Positions 47,956 to 56,574 of a stretch of DNA of 64,000 bases are shown one piece after another. The stretch comes from an uncultured Chitinophagaceae bacterium (lineage in GTDB: Bacteria; Bacteroidota; Bacteroidia; Chitinophagales; Chitinophagaceae): the NCBI GenBank assembly GCA_903884185.1, contig CAISDV010000089.1, positions 92,128 through 156,127 of the forward strand, read 5' to 3'. The translations under genes and the position numbers were made by a program. Each line of letters begins with the position of its first letter. The first letter of the stretch is position 1. The notes below the pieces were generated by a model that worked only from the letters and a program-made list of their open reading frames with translations, had not been told where the DNA came from and made no database searches.

Positions 47956-48152
47956 ATAAGCAGTTTAAATGATAAGAAATTGAGGTTGCTGCCTAAATAT
48001 ATTCACTTTTTACAAGAAAAAAAGCGAATGGTTGTTAGCATAATGGGTTTGTATAAATGTGGCTTAATTTATGCATTTAACACCTTTTTCACTACCTTTT
48101 AGGTAACATTGTGAGGATAATTGTGCTCTTAGAATAATAAAGCCGAAAATTG

Positions 48153-48590
48153 ATGAAACCCCTGATTTGCCTACTTCTGTCTGCTTTCATGCTCGCATCC
48201 CCCGAATGGCATAACAGCCTCGATGAAGCCAAACAGATCGCCAAAAAAGAACATAAGTACATACTTCTGAGTTTTTCCGGATCCGACTGGTGTGGCCCCT
48301 GCATCCGCATGCACAAAGAAATATTCGGAAGCGATGCTTTTAGCAGCCTGGCATCATCGAACCTGGTACTGGTGAATGCTGATTTCCCAAGGCTGAAAAA
48401 AAATCAACTAAGTAAAAAACAACAAGACATCAATAATGCGATGGCTGATCAATACAATTCCCAGGGAGCATTTCCTTATACGGTATTGCTTGATGCGGAA
48501 GGCAAAATTTTGAAAAGCTGGGATGGACTGCCTACCAGCAAACCCGAGGAATTTTGCAGCGAAGTAAAAGAAGCGATCGGGGTACATTAA
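48153..48590 (+). CDS. Exported thioredoxin-like protein
   Basis: A 145-residue protein with a short signal (MKPLICLLLSAFMLASP) and a thioredoxin fold of the DUF255/TlpA-like kind. The active site is W46-C47-G-P-C50 in SGSDWCGPCIRMHKEIF, with the cis-proline segment GAFPYTVLLD later. It probably reduces disulfides or assists cofactor insertion outside the cytoplasm. ATG 48153 is preferred to the overlapping TTG 48150. It is the first gene of a tight operon: apbE begins 8 bp after its stop, followed by DUF4266 and DUF3570 genes, suggesting that it serves the same redox module. Confidence 0.88.
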   Translation: MKPLICLLLSAFMLASPEWHNSLDEAKQIAKKEHKYILLSFSGSDWCGPCIRMHKEIFGSDAFSSLASSNLVLVNADFPRLKKNQLSKKQQDINNAMADQYNSQGAFPYTVLLDAEGKILKSWDGLPTSKPEEFCSEVKEAIGVH

Positions 48591-48598
48591 ATACTGAT

Positions 48599-49531
48599 AT
48601 GAGTGCAACAGTAGTATTTAAAAAGGGAACCAAACTGATGGGCAACCACTTCGAGATAAGTGTTGTTGCAGAGGATGAAGCATGGGCAACCGAACGTATT
48701 AATGGGGGTATTGCAGAAATACAAAGAATAGAAAAATTGTTGACTACGTTCAACGATGAAAGTGAGACCAGCCTTATCAACCGCAATGCAGGGATAGCGC
48801 CGGTTAAAGTTTCTGCGGAAACATTTTCATTGATCGAAAGGGCTATCCAGATATCCCGGCTTACACAAGGAGCTTTTGATCTTAGTTATGGTTCAGTAGA
48901 TAAACGTTTATGGAATTTTGATACGGAAATGAAAGCATTGCCGGATAAGGAAACAGCCAAACGGATGGTGAGGCTGATCAATTACAGGAACATTGTCCTT
49001 GATAGTGAGAATAGTACGGTATTTTTGAGAGAAGCCGGAATGCGTATTGGTTTTGGAGGTATTGGTAAAGGATATGCTGCGGAAAAAGCGAGGCAGGTTA
49101 TGAAAGCAATGGGAGTAGAAAGTGGTATCGTGAATGCTTCCGGTGATCTTACAACATGGGGCTTTCAGCCGGATGGCAAACCATGGACGATCGGGATCGC
49201 CAACCCCAATGCTTCTCATCAGTTGTTCTCTTATCTCAATGTTACGGATATGGCGGTGGCCACTTCAGGTAACTATGAAAAATTTGTAATGATCAATGGG
49301 AAAAGATACTCGCACACCATCGACCCGAGAACGGGTTTGCCGGTTGGCGGTATCAAAAGTGTTACGATCATTACACCCAATGCAGTGGTAGCTGATGCAA
49401 TGGCTACCCCGGTGATGATCATGGGTATCAAAGCAGGACTGGATATGATCAACCAGATGAAAGATATTGAAGCAATTGTAATAGACGACAACAATAAAGT
49501 TTATCCTTCGGCTAATATAAGATTCACCTAA
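48599..49531 (+). CDS. apbE: FAD:protein FMN transferase (ApbE)
   Basis: A 310-residue enzyme that attaches FMN from FAD to serine or threonine of a target protein. Family motifs are NHFEISV, the FGGIGKGYAAEKA cofactor segment, NASGDLTTWG, VATSGNYEKF and the conserved SHTIDPRTGLPV. Most ApbE proteins are exported lipoproteins; this one, starting at ATG 48599, shows no signal peptide, and an upstream TTG start (48554) does not give one either. It may thus work before export of its substrate, or the true start is missed. It lies 8 bp after the thioredoxin-like gene and 11 bp before the DUF4266 gene, a likely substrate. Confidence 0.92.
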   Translation: MSATVVFKKGTKLMGNHFEISVVAEDEAWATERINGGIAEIQRIEKLLTTFNDESETSLINRNAGIAPVKVSAETFSLIERAIQISRLTQGAFDLSYGSVDKRLWNFDTEMKALPDKETAKRMVRLINYRNIVLDSENSTVFLREAGMRIGFGGIGKGYAAEKARQVMKAMGVESGIVNASGDLTTWGFQPDGKPWTIGIANPNASHQLFSYLNVTDMAVATSGNYEKFVMINGKRYSHTIDPRTGLPVGGIKSVTIITPNAVVADAMATPVMIMGIKAGLDMINQMKDIEAIVIDDNNKVYPSANIRFT

Positions 49532-49542
49532 AAACTTCCAAC

Positions 49543-49767
49543 ATGAGAAAGCAAACATTTAGAAAGATCGGTTTGGTAGCAGTTGCAGGAATGGCTATGG
49601 CCTCCTGTGCACATGTAAAACAATACCAAAAAAGCAAGATCAATGATTCTGAAATGGCATTGAGTAACCGCAAAGTGGAAAAGAATGAACTCAATTTCCA
49701 GTCGTACCGCGAAGGTGCTTCCGGCGCTAATGGCGGAAAGACCGGCGGGGGTTGCGGATGTAATTAA
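49543..49767 (+). CDS. DUF4266 small lipoprotein with Cys-rich tail
   Basis: A 74-residue lipoprotein: signal to A-S-C22, a charged middle part, then a glycine-rich tail ending GGGCGCN. Residues 57-63 read EGASGAN, close to the D/S-G-A-S/T-x-x-S/T pattern that ApbE modifies in Nqr/Rnf subunits, with S60 in the acceptor place. The last position of the pattern is Asn, so the match is imperfect. The family function is not established. It lies between apbE and the DUF3570 gene (11 and 27 bp gaps). I infer that it may carry FMN or a metal at the periplasmic face of the outer membrane. Confidence 0.85.
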   Translation: MRKQTFRKIGLVAVAGMAMASCAHVKQYQKSKINDSEMALSNRKVEKNELNFQSYREGASGANGGKTGGGCGCN

Positions 49768-49794
49768 TTCATTGTTCTCATTTCAATCTAAGAC

Positions 49795-51060
49795 ATGAAA
49801 AAAATTTGTTTAACACTCGTAGGTATCTATATACTACTGCTGCATGCTTTTTCGCAGGTAAGCCAGAAAGATACTTCTGCTTATAAGATACGGCCATTGA
49901 AACTGGATGAAGTGAATCTTGTATCCAGTTATTATACCCAGGACGGGCATCATTCGGCTGTTACCGGCGGTATTGGCACAGAAAAAGTGACCGACCTTTC
50001 TAATGGCCTTGATGTAAAATGGATCGGTTGGGATGCCGGTCAGCACAAACATACATTAACAGCCAGTGTAGGTTTTGATAATCATACTTCGGCCTCTGCT
50101 GCATTTGTGAATAAATCAGGCGCTTCTAAAACAGGCGGAACAAGAATCTATCCCGCCATTAACTGGATCACCGAGAATGAAAAAAAAGGAAGCAGCTTTG
50201 GGCTCGGCGTTTATTATTCGGGAGAATATAATTACCAGTCATTCGGCGCTGATATACAAGTTTCTCAAAAGACAAAAAATAACGGCGAGTTTAGCCTGAA
50301 GCTCACAGGATATTTCGATAAAGTAAAACTGATCTATCCTTCTGAACTAATACCTATGGATACAGTAGTTACTTCTGGGGGCACCGTTGTAATTACTACA
50401 GCCAGTGGTAAGCAGACCACTTTAAGTTCTGGTGGTGGATCAAGTTCACATGAAAGCAACGGTATTCCTTCAAGTCCAAGAAATACCATTACCAGTTCAT
50501 TCGGATTTTCACAGGTGATCAATGAGAGGTTGCAGGGATCAATTGATGTAGATCTTGTTTACCAGGATGGTTATTTAGGTTTGCCATTTCATCGTGTTTA
50601 TTGGAATGATGCAACTGTACACGTTGAAAACCTTCCTTCGCAAAGGGCTAAATTGCCCATTGGATTAAGATTAAATTATTTTCTGGGAGATAATATCATC
50701 CTCCGATCGTATTACCGTTATTATACAGATAACTGGGGGCTGCAATCGCATACAGCAGGATTGGAAGTGCCGGTGAAGATCACACCTTTCTTTTCCGTGT
50801 CGCCATTCTACAGGTACTACACGCAAACGGCGGTAAAATATTTCCGGCCTTATGAAGTAGCCACTAACAAGGACCAATATTATACCAGCAATTATGCACT
50901 TGCTGCATTCAATAGTAGTTTTTATGGTTTGGGTTTTCGTATTGCACCACCAAAGGGTGTGTTAGGTGCATTTAATACACTGGAAATTCGCTATGGGCAC
51001 TATTCGCAAACAACAGACCTGTCGTCTGATGTAATTTCGGTGAATATGAAATTTAAATAG
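49795..51060 (+). CDS. DUF3570 family outer-membrane protein
   Basis: A 421-residue exported protein (signal ends near HAFSQ) rich in alternating beta strands and ending in an aromatic barrel strand (VISVNMKFK), so likely an outer-membrane beta-barrel. The segments SSYYTQDGHHSAVTGGIGTEK, NKSGASKTGGTRIYP and VYQDGYLGLPFHRVYW are typical of DUF3570. No function is established. It is the last gene of the thioredoxin-apbE-DUF4266 operon and is followed by a strong terminator. The short SGASKTG segment also resembles an ApbE target but is less convincing. It may hold or export the partner lipoprotein. Confidence 0.88.
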   Translation: MKKICLTLVGIYILLLHAFSQVSQKDTSAYKIRPLKLDEVNLVSSYYTQDGHHSAVTGGIGTEKVTDLSNGLDVKWIGWDAGQHKHTLTASVGFDNHTSASAAFVNKSGASKTGGTRIYPAINWITENEKKGSSFGLGVYYSGEYNYQSFGADIQVSQKTKNNGEFSLKLTGYFDKVKLIYPSELIPMDTVVTSGGTVVITTASGKQTTLSSGGGSSSHESNGIPSSPRNTITSSFGFSQVINERLQGSIDVDLVYQDGYLGLPFHRVYWNDATVHVENLPSQRAKLPIGLRLNYFLGDNIILRSYYRYYTDNWGLQSHTAGLEVPVKITPFFSVSPFYRYYTQTAVKYFRPYEVATNKDQYYTSNYALAAFNSSFYGLGFRIAPPKGVLGAFNTLEIRYGHYSQTTDLSSDVISVNMKFK

Positions 51061-51104
51061 CTGCCGAGGGATGATATCCAATGCATTGCAAGAGCGATAA
51101 TATT

Positions 51105-51136
51105 ATGACCGGGACCTATCCCGGTCATTTTTTTAG
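51105..51136 (+). terminator. Rho-independent terminator of the apbE-DUF3570 operon
   Basis: ATGACCGGGA (51105-51114) and TCCCGGTCAT (51119-51128) form a perfect 10-bp stem with a 4-base loop, followed by a run of seven T. It lies 44 bp after the DUF3570 stop codon. Confidence 0.95.
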
Positions 51137-51176
51137 TATTATTGACATAGTAAATTTAGTATCCCCGTACCTTGAT

Positions 51177-52862
51177 ATGATGAGCATAAAAAAAATACCA
51201 TTTTTGTTGTATGTACCAATATGGGTTTTCTTTCTGCTCATTCAACAGGATGCTGCTGCGCAATGCCCCGACAATATTGGGTTTGAGACAGGCTATTTTG
51301 CTCCCTGGGAATGTTATGCAGGAAATATTACATCATCAGGGCAGATAAACGTTCTTCTTACAGGCCCTCAGCCAAACAGGCATGTCATGATAAAAAATTA
51401 CGGCGTGAATACGATGGATTTCTATGGGCAGTTCCCGGTTAATTGCCCAAATGGAAGTGGCTATTCTATCAGGTTGGGAAATGAAGAGAAAGGGGCGCAA
51501 GCCGAAAGAGTGAGCTATACTTTTACCATCCCTTCTAATGTAGATAACTACAGCATCATCTATAATTATGCAGTGGTATTTCAAAACCCCAATCATTCGG
51601 CTTACCAGCAACCAAGGTTTACGGCTAAAGTTTTTGATGTAGATAACCAAATCTATATTGATTGTGCTTCTTTTGATTATGCAGCTTCTTCCTCTTTACC
51701 GGGTTTTAAAGTATCGGCTACACAATCAGATGTTTATTATAAACCCTGGTCGCCGGTAACGATCAAGCTCGCAGGCTTTGCGGGCAGAACACTTCGCCTG
51801 GAATTTACTACCAACGATTGTACTTTGGGCGGCCATTTTGGGTATGCTTATATTGATGTAAATGAAAATTGTTCTTCACCAGTTGGCGGAAATGTGTATT
51901 GCATTGGTGCAAGTTCAGTTACATTAACTGCGCCTTATGGGTATCAATCTTATAGCTGGTCCCCACCCGATTTTTCACAAGTACTGGGAACCGCAAGAAC
52001 ACTTACAATCAAACCCCCGCCTGTACCCAATACTGTTTTTGCATTGATCATCACTCCTTTTCCCGGATCGGGATGCCTGGATACATTGTATGCAACAATG
52101 AAATTTCTGCCCGATAATTTTAATTTGAATGTGCTGTCGCCTATTGAAGTATGTACGCCTAATATTGTTGACCTCACTTCTTCCATTGTAACAGCGGGAA
52201 GCACTCCCGGTATGGTGTTTACTTATTTTCTTGACTCCACACTCGATAATTATGTGCCTGCGCCTAAGTTTATCGCTGGAGATGGATTGTTTTATATTAA
52301 TGCATCTAACAGTGACGGATGCAGCGAAACAAAACCCGTGATCGTTACTATTGCCGATCCGCCCGATCTTCATATTATCGATCCACCCATAGCCTACTAT
52401 CCCAATAAAGTAAACCTTACGGATACTTCTATTGTTAAAGGAAATATTCCCGGGTTTACATTGAGTTACTGGAAAGATTCTTTGGCCACGATCAGTTTGC
52501 CTAATCCAACTGCAGTAGATACTGCCGGAATTTATTATATCAAATCTGCCAACCTTATCGGTTGTAAAGCAATAGACCCTGTGAAAGTAGTGATCGATAT
52601 TGCCCGTCCGCCCAATGCATTTTCACCCAATGGCGATGGGATCAATGATCTTTGGATGATACCGGGCATACAATTGTACCAGCAATGCCGCGTGGATATT
52701 TATAACCGTTATGGGCAACTTGTTTTTCACTCAATAGGTTATACAAAACCCTGGGATGGAACTTTTAATAATCAGCCTTTGCCCATTGCTACTTATTATT
52801 ATGTGATCAAGTTGGATAATGCACATGCTCCTATTGGAGGAAGTATTACGATATTCAAATAA
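51177..52862 (+). CDS. Secreted protein with T9SS type B (gliding-motility) sorting domain
   Basis: A 561-residue extracellular protein. The signal peptide runs to about residue 28 (LIQQDAAAQ). An N-terminal beta-sandwich with FETGYFAPWECYAG and GYSIRLGNE follows, then immunoglobulin-like segments with SGCLDT and SDGCSE pairs. The C-terminal ~85 residues open with NAFSPNGDGINDLW and contain VDIYNRYGQLVFHS and PWDGTFNNQPLPIATYYYVI, the type B sorting tail linked to gliding-motility proteins. It would be secreted by the type IX system; the function is unknown. Start ATG 51177 or 51180 gives the best signal; upstream starts at 51081 or 51105 would run through the terminator. Confidence 0.88.
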   Translation: MMSIKKIPFLLYVPIWVFFLLIQQDAAAQCPDNIGFETGYFAPWECYAGNITSSGQINVLLTGPQPNRHVMIKNYGVNTMDFYGQFPVNCPNGSGYSIRLGNEEKGAQAERVSYTFTIPSNVDNYSIIYNYAVVFQNPNHSAYQQPRFTAKVFDVDNQIYIDCASFDYAASSSLPGFKVSATQSDVYYKPWSPVTIKLAGFAGRTLRLEFTTNDCTLGGHFGYAYIDVNENCSSPVGGNVYCIGASSVTLTAPYGYQSYSWSPPDFSQVLGTARTLTIKPPPVPNTVFALIITPFPGSGCLDTLYATMKFLPDNFNLNVLSPIEVCTPNIVDLTSSIVTAGSTPGMVFTYFLDSTLDNYVPAPKFIAGDGLFYINASNSDGCSETKPVIVTIADPPDLHIIDPPIAYYPNKVNLTDTSIVKGNIPGFTLSYWKDSLATISLPNPTAVDTAGIYYIKSANLIGCKAIDPVKVVIDIARPPNAFSPNGDGINDLWMIPGIQLYQQCRVDIYNRYGQLVFHSIGYTKPWDGTFNNQPLPIATYYYVIKLDNAHAPIGGSITIFK

Positions 52863-52924
52863 ATATTCTACTCTTTAACAGGTGATTGAATTAATTCAAT
52901 GGGCCGGATTAGTAATAGGGAATC

Positions 52925-52992
52925 ACTCTCAAAACCTCTGCGAAACTCCCCGCCTCTGCGCCCGAAGTTTCGGGCTCTGCGGTGAAAAGAAG
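52925..52992. repeat. CTCTGCG-type repeat with an inserted CCCGAAGTTTCGGG palindrome
   Basis: The words CCTCTGCGAAACTC and CCTCTGCG ... CTCTGCGGTGAAA belong to the same style of TGCG/CGCA intergenic element seen elsewhere in the window. The 14-bp palindrome CCCGAAGTTTCGGG at 52961-52974 is flanked on both sides by CTCTGCG (52954-52960 and 52975-52981). This may mean insertion with a 7-bp duplication, or simply an internal repeat of the host element. Confidence 0.65.
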
Positions 52993-53040
52993 CAAATAAA
53001 CAACAAGCGATAAAGAATTGTGTTAAACGGATTCTCCGTC

Positions 53041-53056
53041 TGTGTTTCCAAACACA
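53041..53056 (+). promoter_or_regulatory. Perfect palindrome TGTGTTTCCAAACACA before the M16 genes
   Basis: The 7+2+7 inverted repeat lies 48 bp before the first M16 ATG, and TACTTTAG (53065-53072), a near match to the -7 element, follows it. It could be a regulator site; there is no second copy in the window to support this. Confidence 0.4.
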
Positions 53057-53103
53057 AAAACAATTACTTTAGCCGAAATTTTTCTTCCTTAAATAAAACT
53101 AAT

Positions 53104-54429
53104 ATGTTGATCCAGAAAAAGCTTCTATGTATAGCGGCGGTATTATTCTCGTCGTACATACAGGCACAGAAAGTTGAATTTACGCAGTATGATCTTCCCA
53201 ATGGACTGCATGTAGTACTTCACCAGGACCACTCGGCACCGGTAGTTGCAGTTTCTGTTATGTACCATGTAGGGTCTAAAAATGAAGTAGTAGGACGCAC
53301 AGGCTTTGCGCATTTTTTTGAACACCTTTTATTCGAAGGTTCTGAAAATATCAAAAAAGGAGAATTCTTCAAACTTGTTTCGAGTAATGGCGGACAGAAC
53401 AATGCGAATACTACGCAGGACCGTACTTTTTATTATGAAGAATTTCCATCTAACCAGTTAAAACTTGGATTGTGGCTGGAGAGCGAAAGAATGATGCACC
53501 CTGTCATCAATCAAGTAGGCGTAACCACACAAAACGAAGTGGTGAAAGAAGAAAAACGCCAGAGCTTTGATAACCGCCCTTATGGTAATGTAGTGGCAAA
53601 GATCGTTGCAAGGTTATTTACCAAACATCCTTATCGTTGGGACCCGATTGGTTCTATGGCCGACCTGGATGCAGCAAAGCTGGAAGAGTTCCGGGATTTC
53701 TTCAAAAAATATTATGTTCCTAATAATGCGGTGCTTTCTATAGCGGGTGATATTGATGTTGAACAAACGAAGGCTTTGATAGCGGATTATTTTGGCCCTG
53801 TGCCCAAAGGCGCGCCGATCAATTATGTAAAAACAGAAGAAGCGCCGATCACAAAAATGATCGTGGATACAGCGTATGATGCCAATATACAATTACCCGC
53901 TATTGTTGCAGCATATCGTGTTCCGGGACTGAATAATAAAGATGCCAAGACAATGCAGATGATCTCTACCATACTTTCTGGTGGAGCCAGCTCAGTATTG
54001 TATAAGAAAATGGTGGATGATAAAAAGAACTCTTTGCAGGTAGGCGCTTTTAATTATGCATTAGAAGATTATGGCGCTTATATTATTTATGCACTGCCAA
54101 ATAATAACACGCCGCTGAACAGTTTATTAAAAGATGTGGACGAAGAGATCGTGAAACTACAATCGTCACTGGTGAGCGAAGAAGTGTACAGGAAGATACA
54201 GAACCAGTTCGAAAATAATTATGTAACTGCCAACTCAAGAGTATTGGGTGTTGCGGAAAACCTGGCGAATGGATATACGTTTTACAACAAGAATACAAAT
54301 AACATTAACGAGGAGCTGGATAAAATAAGAAGTATTACAAGAGAAGACATCCTGGCGGCAGCAAAAAAATACCTGCAGCCATCATCCAGGCTGGTGCTTT
54401 ATTATTTACCCGGAAAAACAGCACAATAA
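53104..54429 (+). CDS. M16 family zinc metallopeptidase, catalytic subunit
   Basis: A 441-residue exported protease (signal ends near SSYIQAQ). The inverted zinc motif HxxEH is intact as H70-F-F-E-H74 inside GRTGFAHFFEHLLFEGS, with the downstream QNEVVKEEKRQ helix giving the third ligand. The C-terminal inactive-like half follows (YFGPVPKGAP ... ILSGGASSVLYKKMV). M16B peptidases degrade peptides in a clam-shell chamber and often work as pairs. The next gene, 63 bp away, encodes an M16 protein lacking the zinc motif. ATG 53104 is chosen because the 28 residues upstream do not form a signal. Confidence 0.93.
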   Translation: MLIQKKLLCIAAVLFSSYIQAQKVEFTQYDLPNGLHVVLHQDHSAPVVAVSVMYHVGSKNEVVGRTGFAHFFEHLLFEGSENIKKGEFFKLVSSNGGQNNANTTQDRTFYYEEFPSNQLKLGLWLESERMMHPVINQVGVTTQNEVVKEEKRQSFDNRPYGNVVAKIVARLFTKHPYRWDPIGSMADLDAAKLEEFRDFFKKYYVPNNAVLSIAGDIDVEQTKALIADYFGPVPKGAPINYVKTEEAPITKMIVDTAYDANIQLPAIVAAYRVPGLNNKDAKTMQMISTILSGGASSVLYKKMVDDKKNSLQVGAFNYALEDYGAYIIYALPNNNTPLNSLLKDVDEEIVKLQSSLVSEEVYRKIQNQFENNYVTANSRVLGVAENLANGYTFYNKNTNNINEELDKIRSITREDILAAAKKYLQPSSRLVLYYLPGKTAQ

Positions 54430-54492
54430 TTTTATTAAAAAATGGTGGTGAAGGTTACACGAACATTTGACCCGAACCCAAAACAATACAAC

Positions 54493-56574
54493 ATGAAGAA
54501 AATTGTAATGATACTAGCCGCGGCGTTTTTGATCACCCATGCCGGTGCACAGGTTGACCGCACGAAAAAGCCCGCAGCAGGCCCCGCTCCTGTGATCACA
54601 TTTAAAGACCCGGTTACTTTCCAGCTGCCCAATGGTATTACTGTCTTGATAGCCGAAGACCATAAACTGCCAAAGGTTTCGGCCAGTTTTTATATTGATG
54701 CAGGACCAGTTACCGAAGGAAAAAAAGCGGGTGTACAGGAACTGATGGGTTCTATGCTGAATGAAGGTACCAAGGATATGCCCAAAGCAGTGTTTGATGA
54801 AGAAGTGGATAAAATGGGCGCCAATGTAGGATTAAGTGCATCAGGTGGAAATGCTTCTGCACTTACCCGTTATTTTAAACGTGCTTTTGAATTGATGGGA
54901 AAAGGATTAATGAATCCTGCCTTTACGCAAGAGTCTTTTGATAAATTAAAATCGCAAGTACTGACCGGAATAAAATCGAATGAGAAAAATGTAAAAGCTG
55001 TTTCAGGAAGAGTGGTGGATGCATTGTTTTATGGAAAGACGCATCCAAACGGAGAGTTTGAAACCGAACAAAGTGTGACTGCGTTAACACTGGCCGATGT
55101 AGTGGAAGCCTATCATAAATACATTACTCCTTCCCGTTCTTATTTAACGATCGCAGGGGATATTTCTCCCGAAGCGGCAAAGAAACTGGCAGAAGATGTG
55201 TTTGGAAAAATGCAGGGGCCTTCATTAAAATTTCCTGTATTGCCAACAGTTGCCAACCCTTCTAATGTAGAAATTGATGTGGTGGGAATGTCGAATGCAG
55301 TACAATCGGAAATTACTGTTGGCAACCTGGTTGACCTGAGATTAAATAACCCAGATTATTTTGCAGTACTGTTGGCCAATCAGGTATTGGGTGGTGGTGC
55401 CGAAAGCCGCTTATTCAATAACCTTCGTGAAAAGCACGGGTTTACTTATGGCGCCTATTCAGGTATCAGTGCCGGCAGGTACCAGACCATGTTTTCTGCT
55501 TCTGCTTCTGTACGTACGCCAAAGACCGACAGTGCTGTAACGGAATTCCTGAATGAAATAGAAAAACTCCGCAATGAAAAAGTTTCTGACGAAGAGTTGA
55601 ATAGTGCCAAGGCATTATACAATGGCTCGTTTGCATTGGGTATGGAAAACAGGGAACGTACAGCAGGTTATGCAAGGAATATCCTCATCAATGAATTGCC
55701 TAAAGATTTTTATCGCACTTACCTGCAGAAGATCAATGCAGTTACTGCAGATGATATACAAAGGGTAGTTAGAAAATATTTTAACCGTGAGAATGTACGC
55801 ATCGTCGTTGTAGGAAATGCATCGGCCATGCTGGAAGGATTGAAGAAACTGAATTTTACTGTAAAGCAATTTGATACATACGCAGATCCTCTGGTTGTGT
55901 CAGCTGCGCCCGCTGCCTCTGCCAGTGTGAAGGCCTCTGATATTTTTTCTGATTACCTGAAAGCAATAGGTGGAACGGATGAACTTGGAAAAGTAAGATC
56001 CATTTATGCTACGATGGGGTTAAGTATGCAGGGAATGAATATTGATGTGCAGATGAAGGAGATGGTTCCCAATATGAAATCCATGACCATGGCGATGGCT
56101 GGTAATACGTTGATGAAAACCAGGTTTAATGGAACAGCAGGCTACCAGGAGCAGCAGGGCAATAAAGTGGAGATGACGGCCGATGAAATAAAAGAAGAAG
56201 CTGCAGTTAATAATTTATTTGAACAGATAGATTACTTGAAGAACCCTGCATTTAAAGCAGTAGTGAATGGAACCGAAAAATTGAATGGCTCAGATGTATA
56301 CAAGGTAACGCTTACTTACCCCACAGGCAAGGCAAAGACAGAATATTATGATATGAAGAGCAAGTTTCTTTTAAAAACAGAAGAAACAAAATCTGCCAAT
56401 GGCACTGAGGTTGTGACTACTGTAGAATTTGCTAATTATAAGAAAGCCGGGAATATCATGTTTCCATATTCTCAGACGATCACCAACGCAGCCAATGGGC
56501 AATCACAATCATTTGAATTAAAAGCAACTGATGTAAAGATCAATGAAGGTGTGACGGCAGATGATTTTAAATAA
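54493..56574 (+). CDS. M16 family partner subunit without zinc site, with extra C-terminal domain
   Basis: A 693-residue exported protein (signal ends near THAGAQ). Residues about 35-470 form an M16 fold, but the place of HxxEH is filled by AGVQELMGSML, so it cannot bind zinc in the usual way. The substrate-binding segment NNLREKHGFTYGAYSG is kept. It is probably the non-catalytic half of a heteromeric M16 protease with the protein encoded 63 bp upstream. Residues about 480-693 form a separate module (DYLKAIGGTDELGKV ... EGVTADDFK) that resembles the tail of the M1 protein at 307-2919 and recalls LolA/LppX-type lipoprotein-carrier folds. That fold assignment is only a guess. Confidence 0.9.
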   Translation: MKKIVMILAAAFLITHAGAQVDRTKKPAAGPAPVITFKDPVTFQLPNGITVLIAEDHKLPKVSASFYIDAGPVTEGKKAGVQELMGSMLNEGTKDMPKAVFDEEVDKMGANVGLSASGGNASALTRYFKRAFELMGKGLMNPAFTQESFDKLKSQVLTGIKSNEKNVKAVSGRVVDALFYGKTHPNGEFETEQSVTALTLADVVEAYHKYITPSRSYLTIAGDISPEAAKKLAEDVFGKMQGPSLKFPVLPTVANPSNVEIDVVGMSNAVQSEITVGNLVDLRLNNPDYFAVLLANQVLGGGAESRLFNNLREKHGFTYGAYSGISAGRYQTMFSASASVRTPKTDSAVTEFLNEIEKLRNEKVSDEELNSAKALYNGSFALGMENRERTAGYARNILINELPKDFYRTYLQKINAVTADDIQRVVRKYFNRENVRIVVVGNASAMLEGLKKLNFTVKQFDTYADPLVVSAAPAASASVKASDIFSDYLKAIGGTDELGKVRSIYATMGLSMQGMNIDVQMKEMVPNMKSMTMAMAGNTLMKTRFNGTAGYQEQQGNKVEMTADEIKEEAAVNNLFEQIDYLKNPAFKAVVNGTEKLNGSDVYKVTLTYPTGKAKTEYYDMKSKFLLKTEETKSANGTEVVTTVEFANYKKAGNIMFPYSQTITNAANGQSQSFELKATDVKINEGVTADDFK

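Follow-up and report, generated by a model that had tools for sequence, protein, structure and literature searches.

Gene clusters that combine an ApbE flavin transferase with DUF3570, a PF13899 thioredoxin and DUF4266 have been described by Meheust et al. 2021 (eLife, PMC8238504), both together with DsbD and, in 316 cases, without it. In that work the C-terminal CXC of DUF4266 was pointed out, and the DUF3570 protein of Chlorobium luteolum, co-expressed with its ApbE, was flavinylated at two [S/T]GA[S/T] motifs, flavinylation being abolished only once both motifs had been changed. The main text of that paper leaves the function of the DUF3570 systems open and, supplements aside, nowhere mentions a barrel, a loop or Rieske. 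Our literature search (subscription papers and supplements lay outside its scope) returned no second paper naming DUF4266 or DUF3570, and the matches listed on flavinylated barrels, on ApbE combined with Rieske, and on ApbE combined with thioredoxin and outer membrane included no other account of the system. Here we analyze such a cluster from an uncultured Chitinophagaceae bacterium (GenBank assembly GCA_903884185.1; 2.95 Mb in 188 contigs), located in a stretch of 64,000 nucleotides of contig CAISDV010000089.1 (positions 92,128 to 156,127, forward strand), referred to below as the window.

The operon in the window encodes a thioredoxin, ApbE, DUF4266 and DUF3570 (Table 1). The four families stand together over their Pfam cut-offs and DUF4266 ends in CGCN, as in the clusters without DsbD; the operon was not filed as the DsbD-linked form because the genome's only DsbD_TM match sits on another contig. 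A preliminary description of this DNA had presented the operon as its best candidate for an undescribed system. Since the cluster had already been reported (PMC8238504), the operon is a Bacteroidota variant of a described system, for which a sharper mechanistic hypothesis can be offered. On balance, we favor the reading that ApbE attaches flavin mononucleotide (FMN) to serines in a loop of the DUF3570 barrel (Ser111 and probably Ser101) and that the thioredoxin and the lipoprotein tail deliver electrons there; within this explanation, DUF4266 would rather be an electron shuttle than a flavoprotein.

ApbE recognizes the motif D-x-x-[S/T]-G-A-[S/T] and attaches FMN to the last (C-terminal) Ser/Thr (PMC12052999). 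The DUF3570 protein of the window contains one exact [S/T]GA[S/T] motif and not two: SGAS at residues 108-111 (site 2), which had been overlooked in the preliminary description, is preceded by DNHTSAS at residues 95-101 (site 1), where the motif reads TSAS. This region aligns with that of Chlorobiaceae relatives, used as stand-ins for the C. luteolum protein itself. Site 1 falls on the full motif, which is present in 67/67 Chlorobi and 47/48 betaproteobacterial rows of an alignment of 176 rows (after merging identical proteins and removing those below 330 amino acids (aa) as well as one duplicate, L085). Both the acceptor Ser/Thr and the preceding Ala of site 1 are kept in 174 of the 176 rows, and the columns with at least 90% conservation in 84 DUF3570 sequences include D95, A100 and S101. 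The motif Gly is present in all 115 Chlorobi and betaproteobacterial rows and in none of the 61 Bacteroidota rows (the window's own included), where it is replaced by Ser (54), Ala (5) or Val (2). Among the closest DUF3570 homologues, site 1 reads Dxx[ST][SA]AS in 120/120 and an exact [ST]GA[ST] lies within residues 95-140 in 117/120; site 2 is SSAS in many other Bacteroidota. The two closest-homologue sets used in this work are the best 120 of 4704 and the best 120 of 4929, that of DUF4266 including the window's own protein, and one further set is the best 80 of 560.

The genome was also searched for ApbE substrate families. No FMN_bind and no NqrB/RnfD was found, and the single DUF2271 forms one protein with the second and last ApbE of the genome, next to a PepSY protein. 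Therefore, among the substrate families searched, DUF3570 is the only nameable target for the ApbE of the window. Judging from these sequences, DUF3570 of the window likely carries FMN. The ApbE-DUF2271 fusion gene lies outside the window (G000 contig C89:46775-48286, or L126:6776-8287), with a PepSY_TM_like_2 gene following it; its DUF2271 motif is TSAT, with Ser for Gly as in site 1 of DUF3570.

Several points weigh against flavinylation of this barrel. Site 1 is without the motif Gly, and a change of Gly to Ala cut flavinylation to ~50% in another protein (PMC12052999). No exact motif is found in the site region in 18/25 and 22/35 rows of other Bacteroidota, and Gly is kept in 6 of the 7 DUF2271 domains read in the class (7 of 9 matches, the two weakest left out), that is, in all but this genome's own. 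A phylum-wide relaxation of the ApbE motif is not supported, by the same count. One may suppose, though we regard it as rather unlikely, that the flavin has been partly or wholly lost in Bacteroidota, so that the window and its closest kin are modified at site 2 only and the SSAS forms at neither site, the barrel using the dithiol arm alone. The replacement of the site 1 Gly in 60/60 Bacteroidota rows (the window's own apart), as opposed to its constancy in Chlorobi and Betaproteobacteria, and its absence from all of the 120 closest DUF3570 homologues speak for such a loss. However, loss should release both the site residues and apbE, whereas the acceptor Ser and the Ala of site 1 are kept in 58/60 of these rows and 52 of 56 Bacteroidota loci (the window's own, 20 of its order and 35 others) retain apbE in the stretch fetched.

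These 56 loci were fetched for their DUF4266, and all four genes are present in 49 of them, a linkage beyond chance and in agreement with the tightly linked, ApbE-centred redox module of the preliminary description. The order Trx-ApbE-DUF4266-DUF3570 occurs in 45 of the 49 complete loci and in one more with a thioredoxin-ApbE fusion, while three (L108, L120 and L121) deviate from it. The complete set was found in 15/34 Chlorobi and 39/48 betaproteobacterial loci, figures to be read with the facts that several contigs stop inside the cluster, that many Chlorobi rows are near relatives and that the homologue sets are biased. In many of these loci the order is Trx-DUF4266-DUF3570-ApbE, often followed by DsbD. 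DUF3570 stands directly after DUF4266 for 203 of 207 DUF4266 open reading frames (ORFs; loci fetched twice are counted). Among 296 genomes of the phylum, DUF4266 is present in 83 and DUF3570 in 86, all 83 lying within the 86; 46 of the 83 come from one family (Chlorobiaceae by contig match) and are therefore not independent. A programmed frameshift joining thioredoxin and ApbE, an idea that arose because their frames overlap and L147 has an in-frame fusion, was discarded, the frame relation not being constant (25, 17 and 3 of 45 loci per class).

Some loci depart from the common pattern. In L106, L107 and L112 the DUF3570 flavin sites are replaced by ASAS and STPS/SSPS, with apbE still there. 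L118 and L119 contain the DUF4266-DUF3570 pair and no apbE or thioredoxin in the stretch, yet their DUF3570 has VTGAT; a neighbouring protein of ~800 aa in both is shared with L115. A tandem pair of DUF3570 genes lies behind a single DUF4266 in L128 and L136, and several Chlorobi have many DUF3570 matches per genome.

DUF3570 is predicted to form a barrel of 16 strands, and the Foldseek and VIA matches listed for the predicted structure are outer-membrane barrels. The barrel proposed in the preliminary description is thus borne out, in strand number (even) and structural neighbours, at the level of a predicted structure. In the model the gaps between strands are 14, 17, 2, 47, 23, 4, 27 and 4 residues on the side of the flavin-site loop and 4, 4, 4, 4, 4, 8 and 11 on the other side, and the flavin-site loop lies opposite both termini. 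All nine strand residues that are invariant in the 84 sequences face the lumen in its outer half, a class that makes up 52 of the 208 strand residues (hypergeometric P 2e-6); lumen and lipid faces were assigned from residue patterns on the predicted secondary structure, with little contrast in strands 33-50 and 226-241. The second extracellular loop is thus predicted to hold both flavin sites, above a vestibule in the outer lumen half that is polar and conserved. Against this model stand the low Foldseek TM-scores of the listed barrel matches (0.27-0.42 by query length), the assignment of the conserved Tyr47, Tyr307 and Gln240 to the lipid side, and the low confidence of the site loop (pLDDT 53 for residues 101-110). 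No solved structure related to DUF3570 by sequence was found up to E 1.

The ApbE of the window matches 7esa, a flavin adenine dinucleotide:protein FMN transferase, with E 8e-46 in a sequence search of solved structures. Its start lies eight bases past the thioredoxin stop, its N-terminus is not hydrophobic, and it differs from the periplasmic-lipoprotein type in having neither signal peptide nor lipobox; here and below, the signal-peptide calls come from a crude hydrophobicity score and visual inspection rather than from SignalP, some long ORFs having unsure starts. No signal-like N-terminus was seen in 17/18 ApbEs of the window's order, nor by eye in 20 Chlorobi ApbEs and in the betaproteobacterial ones with readable starts (one of each group was flagged for a stretch inside the enzyme, and L106 is unclear). 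Cytoplasmic ApbEs are known (PMC12052999). The frequent lack of a signal peptide suggests that the flavin may be loaded before export, and this, together with a change of compartment in some lineages, is the simplest reading. It counts against this reading that 16/33 ApbEs of other Bacteroidota clusters and one thioredoxin-ApbE fusion (L147, the same gene as L024) have a signal-like N-terminus. In a tree of 73 ApbEs, which has a very long outgroup branch and an unsure root, the signal trait shows four changes; taking L106, whose label is probably wrong, as exported reduces them to three. These data would suit an ApbE that acts after export, on the barrel or on a periplasmic intermediate, via an unrecognised route. 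We give this alternative a low probability, as it runs against the missing signal in the ApbE of the window, in nearly all those of its order and in the Chlorobi and readable betaproteobacterial enzymes. The fusion mentioned is one ORF (L147:4500-5930, or L024:57-1430) in the same gene position.

As for the donors, the nearest solved sequence to the thioredoxin of the window is 2ju5, chlamydial DsbH (E 3.6e-17); with 87.3 bits against the 190 required by NCBIfam NF043050, it falls outside the DsbH family proper. The DUF4266 tail is CGCN in 120/120 closest proteins (own included), and a CXC end occurs in 98/102 ORFs of a wider set; the remaining four had been read out of frame next to a genuine DUF4266 and were dropped. 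The two tail cysteines to which the preliminary description drew attention are thus kept. Mercuric reductase and thioredoxin reductase have C-terminal arms, and by analogy the Gly-rich tail of DUF4266 may be a mobile dithiol arm. A potential of -167 mV is quoted in PMC3173608 for the CGC tripeptide, which we count in favor of the mechanism proposed below. ORFs of at least 550 aa recognized by the thioredoxin profile lie beside the cluster in Betaproteobacteria (27) and Chlorobi (13), and the three tested by Pfam were all DsbD; none was found in the Bacteroidota loci by this search, which a split DsbD would escape. The present genome carries DsbD_N, DsbD_TM and a thioredoxin side by side on a different contig. 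The DsbD_TM protein (L127:7472-8896) ends in CSC, also a C-terminal CXC, and DsbD_N and the thioredoxin are separate adjoining genes.

A Rieske-type lipoprotein gene stands directly before the thioredoxin gene in 9/58 loci, cytochrome b561 is near 5/58 and VIT1-type iron-transporter genes are near 10/58, the 58 loci including two Chlorobi loci and near relatives. Pfam confirmed all those tested (4 Rieske, 2 cytochrome b561 and 2 VIT1). The Rieske loci are L090, L092, L095-L098, L101, L102 and L106; 8/9 of the proteins begin with a twin-arginine-like RK.F, and that of L106 has lost a ligand Cys. None of the Rieske, cytochrome b561 and VIT1 genes was found in the window's neighbourhood. The favored explanation has against it that the operon's neighbourhood showed no linked gene for DsbD, Rieske or VIT1, and that the genome search gave no VIT1. 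Iron uptake through VIT1 was rejected as the function here, and the iron reading is weakened for this organism because VIT1 is neither linked nor found in the genome.

In the mechanism we propose, ApbE of the window would modify the DUF3570 precursor in the cytoplasm, ahead of Sec export, and the barrel would then be inserted in the outer membrane with its flavins in the second extracellular loop over the polar vestibule. The DsbD encoded elsewhere in the genome may keep the exported thioredoxin reduced; the thioredoxin would reduce the CGC disulfide of DUF4266, and the Gly-rich tail arm would in turn reduce the FMN of the barrel. At the cell surface the flavin might finally reduce an acceptor; ferric iron, for which the VIT1 genes near some loci speak, is a weakly supported candidate. 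The most likely function would be a thiol-fed, flavin-based electron outlet of the outer membrane, arm and outlet both being plausible. We consider it improbable that the chain runs in reverse or does not serve electron export, an externally oxidized barrel flavin oxidizing the CGC arm so that envelope thiols are oxidized or isomerized, or that the CGC tail binds a metal. CXC can bind metals, and the latter version leans on this property. The reverse chain draws support from the potential of the CGC tripeptide given above (PMC3173608), which resembles that of protein disulfide isomerase. In contrast, the linkage of DsbD in Chlorobi and Betaproteobacteria indicates a reducing branch, and the thioredoxin resembles chlamydial DsbH, which is described as reducing (PMC5193440).

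It is very improbable that DUF4266 is itself the flavoprotein, as the preliminary description had proposed, with FMN on Ser60, a tail held in the reduced state by the thioredoxin and a barrel that does no more than hold the protein. EGASGAN (residues 57-63) and GGGCGCN (residues 68-74) had been read correctly, the former resembles the ApbE pattern, and position 60 is Ser/Thr in 119/120 closest DUF4266 proteins (own included) and in 116 of a set of 146 tails that spans Bacteroidota, Chlorobi and Betaproteobacteria (pre-filtered for the CXC end, hence silent on its conservation). The first Ser/Thr of the motif had been taken as acceptor, whereas it is the last (PMC12052999), and the acceptor place is here Asn63. 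It is Asn in 120/120 closest proteins and, in the 146 tails, Asn (48), Ala (41), Ser/Thr (34), Tyr (15), Gly (7) or Leu (1). DUF4266 is therefore not an ApbE substrate by motif, and the check named in the preliminary description, Ser/Thr at position 60 across the family, came out against its substrate; DUF3570, in contrast, is a proven substrate of ApbE in C. luteolum (PMC8238504).

Table 1. Features of the operon and its surroundings (positions in the window)
Feature	Position	Strand	Evidence
Thioredoxin-like protein (PF13899, DsbH-like), signal-like N-terminus	48153..48590	+	Pfam Thioredoxin_7 42.8 bits, over cut-off
Thioredoxin active site WCGPC, Cys47 and Cys50	codons within 48291-48302	+	
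ApbE flavin transferase, 310 aa	48599..49531	+	Pfam PF02424 285.2 bits, over cut-off
DUF4266 lipoprotein, 74 aa, lipobox-like MASC (Cys22), Gly-rich tail ending GGGCGCN	49543..49767	+	PF14086 67.9 bits, over cut-off
DUF4266 CGC redox-type motif, Cys71-Gly72-Cys73	49753..49761	+	CGCN in closest 120 proteins
DUF4266 EGASGAN, residues 57-63, flavinylation-like, acceptor place Asn63	49711..49731	+	
DUF3570, signal-like N-terminus and predicted 16-strand outer-membrane barrel, likely flavin carrier	49795..51060	+	Pfam 105.8 bits, over cut-off
DUF3570 predicted flavin site 1, D95-N-H-T98-S99-A100-S101, acceptor S101, motif Gly replaced by Ser	50077..50097	+	
DUF3570 predicted flavin site 2, S108-G109-A110-S111, acceptor S111	50116..50127	+	
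Intrinsic terminator	51105-51128	+	perfect 10-pair stem, 4-base loop, then six T

The four genes are co-directional and separated by 8, 11 and 27 bp; ORF coordinates, Pfam and the terminator scan agree with the preliminary description in these gaps, in the gene content and in the terminator. By chance, 4.9 terminator-like sites would be expected and the scan gave 5, the one behind the operon being the only site on the + strand with a 10-pair stem. No match to a Bacteroidota-type -7 box pattern was found on the + strand in 47960-48160. The upstream neighbour, on the opposite strand, encodes a GH10 protein and the downstream neighbour a CHU_C-tailed protein (Pfam), both outside the conserved gene set. 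The CHU_C (type IX secretion) protein occupies 51081-52862; behind it, within 51081-56574, lie two peptidase-like genes, of which Pfam assigns the first to M16. Named homologues high in the closest-120 listings come from Hanamia, Ginsengibacter and Chitinophaga.

With DUF3570 in place of DUF4266, the substrate assignment drawn from a sequence-only reading is corrected, and a flavin on a predicted extracellular barrel loop narrows an ill-defined electron-transfer module down to a concrete hypothesis, an outer-face flavin outlet with a thiol-arm donor. New here are the prediction of a 16-strand barrel, with both flavin sites predicted in one extracellular loop beside the lumen vestibule, as well as the Gly swap at site 1 in Bacteroidota, the cluster ApbE that is often without a signal peptide and the Rieske gene before part of the loci. 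This work raises two questions: by what route a covalently flavinylated outer-membrane protein would cross the inner membrane if its ApbE works in the cytoplasm, and how much change the ApbE motif can undergo (Gly to Ser) with its acceptor and Ala held constant. As a speculation that we put forward with little confidence, the whole might be a haem-free outer-membrane electron conduit: a 16-strand barrel flavinylated in the cytoplasm and exported with its FMN, one or two surface flavins over the conserved vestibule being recharged through the lumen by a swinging Cys-Gly-Cys lipoprotein arm, with a Gly-less flavin site in Bacteroidota and, in some lineages, a Rieske lipoprotein plus cytochrome b561 taking the place of DsbD as the supply.

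Compared with the clusters of Meheust et al. 2021, the operon has the same four families, close linkage, the CXC tail and DUF3570 as the likely substrate; unlike many Chlorobi and betaproteobacterial loci, it has ApbE in second rather than last place, and site 1 without Gly. The Chlorobium-type, doubly flavinylated DUF3570 is similar in that one predicted loop holds both sites in a Chlorobiaceae relative, while the protein of the window has one exact site and another with Ser for Gly. The thioredoxin is by sequence a thioredoxin-fold relative of chlamydial DsbH (2ju5), but below the family cut-off and with WCGPC in place of WCMWC. Finally, porin-cytochrome conduits such as MtrAB would share with this system, if the proposal holds, an outer-membrane barrel for electron transfer; in contrast to them, the system of the window would have no haem and would carry a covalent flavin on the barrel and a dithiol lipoprotein.

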